Source of the DNA: Opitutales bacterium
GTDB taxonomy: Bacteria; Verrucomicrobiota; Verrucomicrobiia; Opitutales; UBA953
Length of the DNA stretch: 64,000 nucleotides
Assembly: GCA_017935025.1 (NCBI GenBank)
Contig: JAGBIL010000035.1
Coordinates: 1-64,000 of the forward strand
Direction: 5' to 3'
The notes under the pieces are model-generated. The model saw nothing but the letters and a program-made list of their open reading frames with translations, did not search any database and was not told where the DNA came from. Shown one piece after another: positions 19,880-29,499 of the stretch. How positions within the stretch are numbered: the stretch's first letter is position 1; each line of letters starts with the position of its first letter. Both the position numbers and the translations under genes were made by a program.

Positions 19880-22279
<2,400 letters not shown>

Positions 22280-24892: not shown

Positions 24893-25468
24893 ATGAAAAA
24901 GTCCAAAAAATACCTCCTCGAAGTTTTGGCGCTTGCCGTAGTTTTGCCGTTTGCCGCGTGTGCATCCGATCCCGTTGCTGCAACTTCCACGCAGTATCGC
25001 CCGGAAAATCCGGCACCGATCGAAATCGTTGAACCGCTTGCGGAATACCTCAACGATACGGACGAAGCGTTCCGCGCCCGCGCAAGCGCAGAAGCGATGA
25101 GCGCAATGGCGGCGCAGAAAGCGGCGATGATGAACGCGAAGGTCGAACTCGCCGGAAAAATCAATACCGCCATCGATTCCGTCGGGAAATCCTCCACGGA
25201 AACGGCGCAGGACGACGCGGCAATCACCACGCAAACGAATTTCCGCGAGCTCGCCAAAGCTCACGTTGATCAGACGCTGAACAACATTCACGTTCTCGGA
25301 CAAAAAACGTTCCGCGATCCCGTGGACGGTCGCTACATCGTTTACGTTGCAATCGAAGTCAACAAAAAGGCGGTTGCAGACACGCTCGCGAACAAGGCCT
25401 CACAGACTTCTCCGGAACAGAAAGCGAAGTTGCGCGCCGCGCTCGAAACCGCTTTCGAGGAAAAATAA
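24893..25468 (+). CDS. LPP20-like lipoprotein
   Basis: 191 residues. It starts with a basic n-region and a hydrophobic stretch that ends in FAAC with Cys23, a lipoprotein signal. The mature part is helical with an Ala-rich segment (SAMAAQKAAMMNAKVELAGKI), then NFRELAKAHVDQTLNNIHVL and a DGRYIVYVAIEVNKK strand. This pattern resembles LPP20/FlgO-like proteins. It begins a run of four exported proteins that includes the caspase-like gene. The assignment is by pattern, not by a diagnostic motif. Confidence 0.65.
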   Translation: MKKSKKYLLEVLALAVVLPFAACASDPVAATSTQYRPENPAPIEIVEPLAEYLNDTDEAFRARASAEAMSAMAAQKAAMMNAKVELAGKINTAIDSVGKSSTETAQDDAAITTQTNFRELAKAHVDQTLNNIHVLGQKTFRDPVDGRYIVYVAIEVNKKAVADTLANKASQTSPEQKAKLRAALETAFEEK

Positions 25469-25536
25469 CGATTTGTCCGCCCGAGAATAGCGGGTTGTGT
25501 GCATTCGCTATTCGCGATTGTTTTCCGACGATAGAA

Positions 25537-26361
25537 ATGCGTCTCGCTTTGCTGTTTGCTTTTTTGACGGGAATGACCGTGTGCGTTCCCGCGTGCGTTG
25601 CGGTTCCCGAAGAAATCGTGACCCGGCGCGTGCGCGGCGAGTGGACGCTTTCGCCCGAGTCCGACGCTTCTCCGAAAGAAGCCTTTTTCCGCGCACAAAA
25701 CGAAGCGCGGCGCAAAGCGATTCTCGCTGTGTGCGGCGAGCGCGTTTCTTCGTGGGACACCTTGCTTTCGCAAGCCGACGGGCAGGCGTACAGCGGCGTG
25801 GTCGTTACGAACAGCGTCGGTGTCGTTCACTCGTTTAAGGAACTTCGCCGCGGTTGGACGTTCCCGCGCGCGGGCGAAACCGAGGCGCACGAATCGCCGT
25901 CGGTTTTTGTCGAAGCGGAAGTTTCCGTGAAAAAATCCGCCGAGGAACCCGATCCCGCTTTTACGGCGCTGGTTTCCGGCGGGAAAAGCGTTTACCGGAA
26001 CGGCGAGGAAGACACGTTTTCGGTAAAAGTCGCCCAAGACGCGTACCTGACGGTTTTCTGGCTGAATCAGGATTTTCGTGCGGATGTCGTTTTCCCCGAG
26101 CATCGCTGGGAAAGCAATCTGATTCGCGCGGAGAAAAAAGCACCGGAATTTTCGCTGGTTTTCGAAATTTCTTCCCCGCGCTCGAAACGCGAAACGGGAA
26201 CGCTCTTTTTCGTGCTGACGAAACAGCCGTATCCGTTTTTGAAAAACGACGACAATCGGAATTCCGAGCAAAACCGCGAACGCCTCGAACGCTGGATGGC
26301 GGACATCCCTCTGCGGGAACGCTTCATTTACGCCGTTCCGTTTGTAATTACAAAAAACTGA
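25537..26361 (+). CDS. Exported DUF4384-like protein
   Basis: 274 residues from ATG 25537, which opens a signal peptide (MRLALLFAFLTGMTVCVPAC). An upstream ATG at 25495 would bury that signal. The middle (SPKEAFFRAQNEARRKAILAV) resembles the LPP20/FlgO-like strand-helix unit. The later part (YRNGEEDTFSVKVAQDAYLT, then VFWLNQDFRADVVFPE) has the DUF4384 pattern, a beta-rich domain often found beside or fused to bacterial caspases. It lies 68 bp after the lipoprotein and 109 bp before the caspase gene. Confidence 0.7.
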   Translation: MRLALLFAFLTGMTVCVPACVAVPEEIVTRRVRGEWTLSPESDASPKEAFFRAQNEARRKAILAVCGERVSSWDTLLSQADGQAYSGVVVTNSVGVVHSFKELRRGWTFPRAGETEAHESPSVFVEAEVSVKKSAEEPDPAFTALVSGGKSVYRNGEEDTFSVKVAQDAYLTVFWLNQDFRADVVFPEHRWESNLIRAEKKAPEFSLVFEISSPRSKRETGTLFFVLTKQPYPFLKNDDNRNSEQNRERLERWMADIPLRERFIYAVPFVITKN

Positions 26362-26470
26362 CGAAATGCGCTTCGCGCCGCATTTCTCCACTTTTTTTTT
26401 CTCTGTTCCCGCGAATTTTCCGGCGATTCTCCGGAAAGAAAATCTCAAGTTCCTTAAAAAATTCCCCGCA

Positions 26471-28531
26471 ATGAAAAGTTTTTCTTTCGCAATTTTGTTT
26501 TTCGCGTTTGCCGTTCCCGCGTCGGCATTTTCCCTGCGCGATCTCGGCGACGGCGCGGCGGAAATTTCCGCTTACTCGGGCGGGGAATCGACGCTCGCCG
26601 TTCCCGCGACGCTCGACGGAAAACGCATCACTCGCATCGGCGCCAGCGCATTTTTCGGAAATGCGAATCTGCAAAGCGTTTCGCTTCCAGAAGGTGTGGA
26701 GGAAATCGCGCCGCTTGCGTTCGCGCATTGCGAAAATCTGAATCGGGTGTCGTTTCCGCGCAGCTTGAAAAAAATCGGCGCGCGCGCATTTTTTGCCTGC
26801 GAAAAGTTGCCGGAAATCGAACTTCCGGAGTCTGCGCAAACGCTCGGCGAAGAAGCGTTTGCATTTTGTTCCGCACTTGAAAAAATCTCCGCGCCGGCGA
26901 CGATTGCGAATCTCGGCGAAAACGCGTTCCCGCTGACATCGCCCGCACTTTTCCCGCCTTCAAAATTCCCCGCGATCGAAATTGAGTCCGCCGCCGTGGA
27001 ATTGCTCGATCCGTCGGGCGATTGCGCAATCGACGGCGCGGAAATTTGCACCTTGTGTGTTCCCGTGAGCAACGCCGGCGAAGCCGACGCGTACGGTTGC
27101 CGCCTTAAAATCGCGCTGAAAACGCCGAACGCCGAACTCGCATTTCCCGAGAGTCTCGGAATCACGAAAATTCCCGTCGGGGAAAAAGTTTTGCTCGAGA
27201 TTCCGGTTTCCGCGTCGCGTGCGCTTGCGGCGGGAACGGCGGAATTTTCGTTTTGCGTCGAAGAGCCGAACGGTTTGGGCTCGGAAGAAAAAATCCTTGC
27301 CCTCGAAACGCGTCCGTTCGTCGCTCCCGCCGTAAAAATCGTCGATTTTCTCGTGAGCGGACAGGGCGATTCCGTGCTGAAGAAAAACGCGCCGTTTGAT
27401 TTTCAGCTTTTCCTGCAAAACACGACTACGGGAACGGCGGAAGAGGTTTCCGTTACGCTTGAATTGCCGAACGGAATTCTCGTTCTCGACGGCAAACAAA
27501 CGCAAAAATTTCCCGCTCTGCGCGGCGGCGAAGCTCAACCGCTGGAATTTTCCCTGCTCGTACCGCGTCGCTATCGCAGCGAGGAAATTCCCGTCCGCGT
27601 GAAAATTTCGGAAAAATACGGCGAATTTGCTGAAAATTGGGAAACGACGCTTCGCCTCAATTCTTCCGTCGCAACGGCGAAAACCACGCTCGCTCCCACG
27701 GGAACGGCAAACGCGGAAATCGCGACGGCGTCTTTCCGCTCCGACGCGGACAAAGACATTCCCGTAAATCCCGAAACGCCCGCGCGCAATATTTTTGTCG
27801 CCATCGTCGCCAACGAAAAATACCGCTATGTGGCTCCCGTGAATTTTGCGGAAAACGACGGCGAAATTTTCCGCGAATATTGCCGGAAAACGCTCGGCGT
27901 GCCCGAAAAACAAATCCGTTTTTTCAAAAATGCGACGGTCGGCGATATGAATCTGGCGCTGAATTGGCTCGAAACGCGCGGAAAGTTGCCCGGCGCCGAG
28001 CTGATTTTCTACTATTCCGGGCACGGCGTACCGGACGATTCGGATCGCACCGCGTACCTGTTGCCGGTTGACGGCGACCCGTCCGGCCTCGGCTTTCTGC
28101 GTTCGCTGGACGACGTTTACGCGCAGCTTGCGCGTTCCCGCGCCAAGATAGCCGCCGTGTTTCTGGACGCGTGTTTCAGCGGAATGCGCCGGGACAACGC
28201 GCCGCTCGTTTCCGCCAAAGGCGTACGTCGCGCGGCTTCGTCCGGCGATATTTCGCGGCTTCCGTCGAACCTCGTCGTTTTCACGGCGGCGAGCGGCGAC
28301 CAAACCGCGCATTTCGCAAACGCCGAAAAACACGGGCTTTTTACGTATGTGCTTTTGAAAAAACTTAAAGAAACGCGCGGGAACGTTTCCTTCGCCGAGC
28401 TCGCGGAATATTTGCGCAAAACCGTTCCCGAGCAATCTCTCAAACTCGGCGATTTTGAGCAGACGCCGAGCGTTCTTGCGCACGACGATTTCCCGCATTG
28501 GGATGAAAAACTTTACGGAAACGAAAAATAG
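26471..28531 (+). CDS. Exported LRR (BspA-type) and caspase-like (C14) peptidase
   Basis: 686 residues from ATG 26471. A signal peptide (MKSFSFAILFFAFAVPASA) is followed by BspA-type leucine-rich repeats at about 30-145 (IGASAFFGNANLQSVSLPEG and similar units), two Ig/CARDB-like beta domains at about 165-420, and a C-terminal caspase/gingipain-fold domain from about 440. The catalytic dyad is visible: YYSGHG with His518 and LDACFSG with Cys568. The fold predicts Arg, Lys or Asp specificity, but which one cannot be read here. Bacterial caspases usually act in the cytoplasm in conflict systems; this one is exported. The SUMF1-type gene follows after 11 bp. Confidence 0.85.
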   Translation: MKSFSFAILFFAFAVPASAFSLRDLGDGAAEISAYSGGESTLAVPATLDGKRITRIGASAFFGNANLQSVSLPEGVEEIAPLAFAHCENLNRVSFPRSLKKIGARAFFACEKLPEIELPESAQTLGEEAFAFCSALEKISAPATIANLGENAFPLTSPALFPPSKFPAIEIESAAVELLDPSGDCAIDGAEICTLCVPVSNAGEADAYGCRLKIALKTPNAELAFPESLGITKIPVGEKVLLEIPVSASRALAAGTAEFSFCVEEPNGLGSEEKILALETRPFVAPAVKIVDFLVSGQGDSVLKKNAPFDFQLFLQNTTTGTAEEVSVTLELPNGILVLDGKQTQKFPALRGGEAQPLEFSLLVPRRYRSEEIPVRVKISEKYGEFAENWETTLRLNSSVATAKTTLAPTGTANAEIATASFRSDADKDIPVNPETPARNIFVAIVANEKYRYVAPVNFAENDGEIFREYCRKTLGVPEKQIRFFKNATVGDMNLALNWLETRGKLPGAELIFYYSGHGVPDDSDRTAYLLPVDGDPSGLGFLRSLDDVYAQLARSRAKIAAVFLDACFSGMRRDNAPLVSAKGVRRAASSGDISRLPSNLVVFTAASGDQTAHFANAEKHGLFTYVLLKKLKETRGNVSFAELAEYLRKTVPEQSLKLGDFEQTPSVLAHDDFPHWDEKLYGNEK

Positions 28532-28542
28532 GAGGTTTTGAA

Positions 28543-29499
28543 ATGAAGAAAACGCTTTTCGCTTTTTCCGCTTTTTTTGCGACGCTTACGAGCACGGCGT
28601 TCGCCTATTACGAGGAGCTTGCCGACCTGAAATATCGCGCCAATCGCGGCGAAACGGACGCGCTTGTCGCACTCGGCGAATGCTATGAGCGCGGCGACGG
28701 CGTTCCCGCAGACCAAGCGGTCGCGCTCAGTTACTATCTTGTTGCGTTCAAAAAAGACAAGAGCAACGAAGATTTGCAGGCTCGTATTGCGGCGCTCGGC
28801 GGCACGCGTTTTTTGTCGGAAACGGGCGCGGCTGTCCCCTCGGGAAAAACTTATGTTGTCGATTTAGGCAACGGAACGAAACTCGAACTTGCGGAGATTC
28901 CCGCAGGAATGTTTTTCATGGGTTCGCGGGAAGATTTTCTCGATGAAAAACAGGTGCGCGTGAAAATTTCCGAGCTGTTTTTTCTGGGTAAAACCGAAAT
29001 AACGCAGGCGCAATGGAGCGCCGCGTTTGAGAAAAATCCGTCGTTTTTCAAAAAAGCATCGTTGCCCGTCGAATGCGTAACATGGCACGAGGCGATGGCG
29101 TTTTGCGAAAAACTGACTGCGCGGGAACGCCGCGCGGGTCGTCTCCCGAAAGGCATGAAATTTTCTCTTCCCACGGAGGAACAGTGGGAATACGCCTGCC
29201 GCGCGGGAACGCAAACGCGCTTTTGTTCCGGAGAAACGGAAAACGATTTGTCGCGCGTTGCGTGGTGGAAGGAAAACAGCGGAGAAACGACGCACGCTCC
29301 CGCGCAGAAAGAACCGAACGCATGGGGACTTTATGATATGCACGGAAACGTTTGGGAATGGTGCGCGAATTTTGCGCGTCGCGGCGGCGGCTGGAACGGC
29401 ACGGCGAAAGATTGCCGCGCGGCGGACAGCTACCGCATCGTTCCGGTTACGCGTTCCCGCGGCATCGGCTTTCGTGTCGCTCTGGTAAAAGACGAATGA
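28543..29499 (+). CDS. Exported Sel1-repeat and SUMF1/FGE-like domain protein
   Basis: 318 residues. A signal peptide (about 1-21, ending AFA) is followed by one Sel1 repeat (GETDALVALGECYERGDGVP, about 36-70), then a formylglycine-generating-enzyme-like domain from about 105 with MFFMGSRED, EITQAQWSAAFEKNP, LPTEEQWEYACRAG and WGLYDMHGNVWEWC. The end has RGGGW but lacks the paired cysteines of true sulfatase-modifying enzymes, so it is probably a binding domain. A strong Shine-Dalgarno AGGAGGT stands 7 bp before ATG 28543, rare in this window. It is tightly linked to the caspase gene. Confidence 0.85.
   Translation: MKKTLFAFSAFFATLTSTAFAYYEELADLKYRANRGETDALVALGECYERGDGVPADQAVALSYYLVAFKKDKSNEDLQARIAALGGTRFLSETGAAVPSGKTYVVDLGNGTKLELAEIPAGMFFMGSREDFLDEKQVRVKISELFFLGKTEITQAQWSAAFEKNPSFFKKASLPVECVTWHEAMAFCEKLTARERRAGRLPKGMKFSLPTEEQWEYACRAGTQTRFCSGETENDLSRVAWWKENSGETTHAPAQKEPNAWGLYDMHGNVWEWCANFARRGGGWNGTAKDCRAADSYRIVPVTRSRGIGFRVALVKDE

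Follow-up and report, generated by a model that had tools for sequence, protein, structure and literature searches.

What a caspase would do outside the cytoplasm is the question raised by four adjacent genes, here called P1 to P4 (Table 1), of an Opitutales genome (Verrucomicrobiota; 2.03 Mb) whose closest named relatives are MAGs recovered from the gut or faeces of ruminants. Research on bacterial caspases has treated them mainly as cytoplasmic defence or death effectors, and if some work outside it, they must respond to other triggers and cleave other substrates than the caspases of known defence systems. A sequence-only reading of the 64,000-nucleotide stretch that we analysed (the window) had described the genes as adjacent and co-directional between positions 24893 and 29499, and all four do lie on the forward strand, flanked by rpe on one side and rlmN on the other. 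Because its GC content (0.555) matches that of the window (0.539), the cassette gives no sign of very recent import. The arrangement exceeds chance: the genes are co-directional, they are orthologous in four species, and their dN/dS is low. With a probability of about 0.5, we propose that P1 to P4 form an outer-envelope sensing and proteolysis module, predicted to cut after basic residues.

Table 1. Features of the cassette, in window positions.
Feature	Position	Strand	Length	Remarks
P1	24893-25468	+	191 aa	LPP20-like lipoprotein
Hairpin and T-run between P1 and P2	25485-25513	+		Terminator-like or attenuator-like
P2	25537-26361	+	274 aa	Predicted exported; DUF4384 protein
P3	26471-28531	+	686 aa	Predicted exported; LRR/Ig/Ig/caspase protein
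BspA-type LRRs of P3	26531-26941	+		aa 21-157; LRR_5 E 8.7e-25
Two Ig-like beta-sandwiches of P3	26963-27670	+		About aa 165-400
Caspase (Peptidase_C14) domain of P3	27782-28486	+		aa 438-672; motifs SGHG, DACFSG
Catalytic His518 codon	28022-28024	+		Aligned to metacaspase catalytic His
Catalytic Cys568 codon	28172-28174	+		Aligned to metacaspase DxCHSG motif
Shine-Dalgarno of P4 (AGGAGGT)	28530-28536	+		
P4	28543-29499	+	318 aa	Predicted exported; Sel1 repeat and FGE/SUMF1-fold domain
Terminator-like hairpin with T-run 3' of P4	29541-29560	+		

Export was judged with a home-made heuristic, not SignalP, which looks for a positive n-region, a hydrophobic core and an AxA or lipobox site. All four products pass this rule, P1 as a lipoprotein with Cys23 at the lipobox, while 0/11 control genes of the window do, which bears out the view that each carries a signal peptide. 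G012, a related species, has orthologues of P3 and P4 whose signal sequences share 40% and 24% identity with those of the window, compared with 67% and 55% for the protein bodies, and these diverged signals are still signal-like. That export signals are kept in orthologues despite such divergence supports the envelope module. Combined with intact catalytic residues in P3, the predicted signals support the earlier proposal of an envelope-located caspase carrying recognition-type domains.

The Peptidase_C14 domain of P3 (E 4.5e-16; 59.7 bits against a curated Pfam cut-off of 21.4) is the only one found in the host genome. His518 and Cys568, the catalytic pair named in the sequence-only reading, are both exact in the 686-residue frame and, in an alignment, coincide with the catalytic pair of the solved metacaspases 7qp0 and 4f6o, and the structure model of the domain is of low confidence (pLDDT mostly <50). 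Catalytic and pocket residues alike are conserved across Verrucomicrobiota, and Asp463 and Asp566 stand at positions conserved across the caspases compared. In metacaspases the corresponding residues line a pocket for basic residues, and their acidic nature suggests that P3 would cleave after Arg or Lys. The PADLOC caspase model also recognises the domain (E 9e-7), a general match; against the NCBIfam caspase_w_EACC1 model the domain stays below the cut-off (58.5 bits against 140). Upstream of it, the LRR part is modelled with pLDDT mostly 85-95 and fits TpLRR (6mlx) with an rmsd of 1.1, while the Ig region yields a sub-threshold CARDB match (E 0.012), a model with two beta-sandwiches (pLDDT 40-72) and Foldseek matches to the C-terminal Ig domains of transglutaminases. 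Among the matches listed, phage matches to P3 cover only the LRR or the Ig part.

P4 combines an FGE-sulfatase domain (Pfam, E 1.6e-29) with one Sel1 repeat that scores under its cut-off. Cys291 is the only cysteine in the region of the FGE pair; FGE requires its second cysteine five residues before it, where P4 has Gly286, in agreement with the earlier remark that this SUMF1-type protein is devoid of the FGE cysteines. The solved structure closest to the domain is Treponema denticola variable protein 1 (2y3c, E 3.6e-27), with which P4 shares the FGE/C-type-lectin fold, followed by PorK/GldK lipoproteins; the match to the NCBIfam GldK model (E 2.8e-18) reaches 66.4 bits against an equivalog cut-off of 350. 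The nearest structure is thus a fold of the ligand-binding type and not catalytic FGE, which favours the earlier idea of recognition. Because of this nearest structure and the missing second cysteine, P4 is more likely a binding protein than a modifying one. Unlike the T. denticola protein, P4 has no hypervariable end between species: its C-terminus is conserved, and we rejected it as a target of a diversity-generating retroelement; no RT-like motif was detected in the window or in the stretches sampled near FGE genes. The 2 Mb host genome (G000) encodes further FGE-fold paralogues of P4 on contigs C31, C33, C37, C38, C40 and C44, some of which begin with export-signal-like starts. As had been noticed, P4 has the only strong Shine-Dalgarno, the other gene starts inspected having no site as strong. 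The terminator said to close the cassette is present, as a hairpin with a T-run 3' of P4, but similar patterns are not in excess regionally (20 found against 17.1 expected).

P1 is best matched by LPP20 (PF02169) at E 0.0011 and 19.8 bits, under the curated Pfam cut-off of 25.9; LPP20 is likewise the best family for P1 in 5/5 orthologues (best E 0.00088, still under that cut-off), and the lipidation residue, placed in a lipobox by rule, is invariant in five species. An SHS2-like fold is common to LPP20, FlgP and FlgT, the last two of which form rings associated with the outer membrane (PMC12222027). P1 resembles this family in its best match and differs from it in its sub-threshold score and in having no flagellar gene beside it. 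P2 matches DUF4384 (PF14326) at 28.1 bits against a Pfam cut-off of 27. The family also matches 5/5 orthologues, and P2 is predicted to fold into an N-terminal beta-alpha-beta-beta part and a C-terminal DUF4384 beta-sandwich (mean pLDDT 63). A fold search with this weak model returned generic beta-sandwiches only, and a search for P2 in plasmids gave no match. P2 also gave short matches of 24-25 residues to Shiga-like B subunits, all under the cut-off, which we dismissed as chance.

Hairpins of unrelated sequence, a feature that the sequence-only reading did not mention, occur at the equivalent place between P1 and P2 in 5/5 genomes that have both genes. Their excess over shuffled expectation is well beyond the shuffles in G013 (z -6.7), G012 (-4.0), G014 (-2.3) and G015 (-4.5), and weaker in the window (-0.5). 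A terminator-like hairpin in every one of these genomes makes one plain four-gene operon unlikely and argues against plain co-transcription of P1 to P4; the P1 transcript may instead be separate or attenuated.

The four-gene block is found in 4/8 genomes of the genus, namely the window genome, G013, G012 and G014 (in the last the two halves of the caspase gene lie on different contigs), and the individual proteins are 50-79% identical. Its left neighbour is rpe in 4/4 genomes, and its right neighbour is rlmN in two of them and an N-acetylmuramoyl-alanine amidase with MurJ in G012 and G014. In G015, P1 and P2 occur at another site and the caspase is absent, which indicates that the modules of the cassette can part; P1 to P3 are absent from G011, G016 and G017. 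P3 was not found in the four other genera of the family, and P2 is confined, within the sampled order, to the genus save for one marginal short match. Co-occurrence of the four genes elsewhere and phyletic patchiness, both put forward earlier as checks, were thus observed, the block being kept in four species and the caspase occurring in 1/5 genera of the family. All four genes are under purifying selection. Measured against the nearest species, G013, dN/dS is 0.02-0.10 per gene, and the caspase domain is the most constrained part of P3 (0.023); values against G012 are 0.16-0.39, with synonymous sites near saturation.

Two further observations concern these relatives. In G015, the genus member with P1 and P2 but without the caspase, a chimaera (L057:8130-9203, minus strand) joins a P3-like LRR start to LysM and an FGE domain, which suggests that P3-like and P4-like proteins have shuffled modules. 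In G014, part of the caspase region recurs at the ends of two contigs (L058:5809-6081 and L059:5-169), with a transposase-like frame on one flank; this second copy may have arisen by duplication and decay or through the assembly.

Beyond the genus, a C14 domain is present in 65/388 sampled Verrucomicrobiota genomes, and 10/20 of the caspase genes that could be judged have an exported start. The earlier statement that related systems are generally cytoplasmic therefore does not hold here, as about half of the sampled caspases look exported. DUF4384 occurs in 23/65 caspase genomes against 11/323 others (Fisher p 2.5e-12, or 1.7e-10 minus the window's genus) and lies at most 5 kb from a caspase in 12/21 matches outside the genus, where 0.19 would be expected at random positions; these counts span about nine families and carry no phylogenetic correction. 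Co-occurrence with LPP20 is under-counted, because the PF02169 model misses even P1 at the genome level. A gene-neighbourhood search, as suggested earlier, revealed further exported caspases that adjoin DUF4384, LPP20/LpoB or SUMF1 in other families of Verrucomicrobiota. In the distant genome G235 (L098), an exported 431-aa protein, an exported FlgO/CsgG-like DUF4384 protein and an exported caspase follow each other in the same order as in the window; unlike P3, that caspase has an Lcl_C-like tail rather than LRR/Ig domains, and we identified no gene of the Sel1-SUMF1 type in that stretch. A second locus of this genome (L110) has LPP20 followed by a caspase. LPP20, a CsgG-like DUF4384 protein and three exported caspases, of which the one scanned bears ankyrin and Sel1 repeats, make up locus L102 of G362. 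Exported DUF4384 proteins stand beside large exported caspases in G117, G126, G166 and G169, the one scanned being fused to a papain-type protease; LpoB lipoproteins accompany an exported caspase in G206 (L113); and G263 (L101) encodes an exported caspase-FGE fusion with an array of FGE-fold lipoproteins. The DUF4384-caspase pairs of G196, G258 and G432 look cytoplasmic. That DUF4384, LPP20, LpoB and FGE adjoin caspases in other genomes further supports the envelope module. Two of these loci belong to Opitutales, G126 (L097:2693-18692) and G117 (L096:2215-10653), where exported caspases of 1077-1281 aa stand in tandem after the exported papain-type protease/DUF4384 protein.

The closest caspase domain that we found outside the genus is encoded by the Sulfurimonas aquatica plasmid pSULFM1 (NZ_CP046073.1; 36% identity, E 7e-32), where the caspase gene overlaps that of an LPP20 family lipoprotein by four bases. 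As in the cassette, caspase and LPP20-type lipoprotein belong to one locus, and on the plasmid they directly adjoin; the plasmid differs in having no LRR or SUMF1 gene and in placing LPP20 after the caspase, not before it. Visual inspection suggests a DUF4384-like end in the Sulfurimonas LPP20 protein, which no tool confirmed, and profile comparisons from shallow alignments matched neither P1 nor P2 to this protein, nor P1 to P2.

Parts of this picture have precedents. Bacterial metacaspases have N-terminal helices that are possibly signal peptides, Sel1 and FGE-sulfatase are the third and fifth most common of their partner domains, and their operons have been linked to the cell surface, with extracellular action and a cell-death role proposed (Asplund-Samuelsson et al. 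2012, PMC3501461). For one QC-dyad clade of orthocaspases, a terminal DUF4384 has been noted (PMC6426788). Both exported caspases and proteins that combine caspase with SUMF1 are thus already published, and we found no description of an LPP20/DUF4384 linkage with caspases, or of the P1 to P4 gene order, in the open-access literature. The cassette shares with bacterial metacaspases and orthocaspases a C14 domain with its His/Cys pair, signal-like helices and the Sel1 and FGE-sulfatase partners (PMC3501461), and differs from them in that P3 joins LRR and Ig domains to its caspase, whereas FGE, DUF4384 and the LPP20-like lipoprotein are separate exported neighbours.

From these data we infer the scaffold, ligand binding, cleavage and role of P1 to P4. 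By analogy with the LPP20/FlgP/FlgT family, P1 and P2 would form or organise an outer-membrane complex, while P3 through its LRR/Ig arms and P4 through its lectin-type fold would bind an envelope or foreign ligand. Ligand binding or stress might then release the caspase of P3, which would cut envelope proteins after Arg or Lys. In a gut bacterium, such a module would more likely serve to sense the surroundings or to process surface proteins, defence or lysis being a weaker possibility.

According to the defence reading, which we regard as unlikely, an exported caspase would respond to contact with a phage, a competitor or a toxin and kill or lyse the cell from the envelope side. The PADLOC and sub-threshold caspase_w_EACC1 matches, the patchy distribution of the caspase, its relatives on plasmids and the extracellular cell-death role proposed for bacterial metacaspases (PMC3501461) all point that way, but no gasdermin, NACHT, EACC1, STAND or nuclease partner is found among P1 to P4, the neighbours are housekeeping genes (rpe and rlmN, or the amidase and MurJ in G012 and G014), and low dN/dS gives no sign of diversifying selection. 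Moreover, known defence caspases are cytoplasmic, while P3 is predicted to be exported.

In type IX secretion of Bacteroidota, the caspase-fold protease PorU works with the FGE-fold lipoprotein PorK/GldK, and an analogous apparatus for surface-protein maturation or adhesion would make sense of the likeness of P4 to GldK and to the solved PorK/GldK structures, of BspA-type LRRs typical of surface adhesins, and of the LRR-LysM-FGE chimaera in G015. We nevertheless consider this analogy improbable, since P4 scores 66 bits with the GldK model, whose cut-off is 350, the caspase domain of P3 is C14 and not C25, and other parts of type IX secretion were not seen in the cassette or window. That the four genes are independently useful and came together by chance, with no joint function, is quite unlikely in our estimation: the P1-P2 hairpins suggest separate transcripts, G015 holds P1 and P2 alone at another site, and SUMF1 proteins are numerous in these genomes, yet the block stays intact in four species at 50-79% identity despite a differing right flank, and the DUF4384-caspase linkage is far above chance in unrelated families.

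Verrucomicrobiota caspases sit with envelope proteins far above chance. Related clusters with caspases predicted to lie outside the cell occur across the phylum and suggest that envelope protease systems form a family that has received little study, and not a one-off. More tentatively, and with considerable doubt, exported caspases, DUF4384 and LPP20/LpoB-type proteins might constitute one widespread, hitherto undescribed envelope system, reaching at least Verrucomicrobiota and Campylobacterota, in which caspase proteolysis would be controlled from an outer-membrane scaffold and of which P1 to P4 would be a version whose sensors are of the LRR/Ig and lectin types. As partners of caspases, DUF4384 and LPP20 offer a concrete handle on domains of unknown function. 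Elsewhere in the window, at 19880-22279 on the forward strand, lies a sigma-70-family factor of 799 aa with an N-terminal extension of about 150 residues that is rich in Lys, Ala and Pro and resembles a histone tail.
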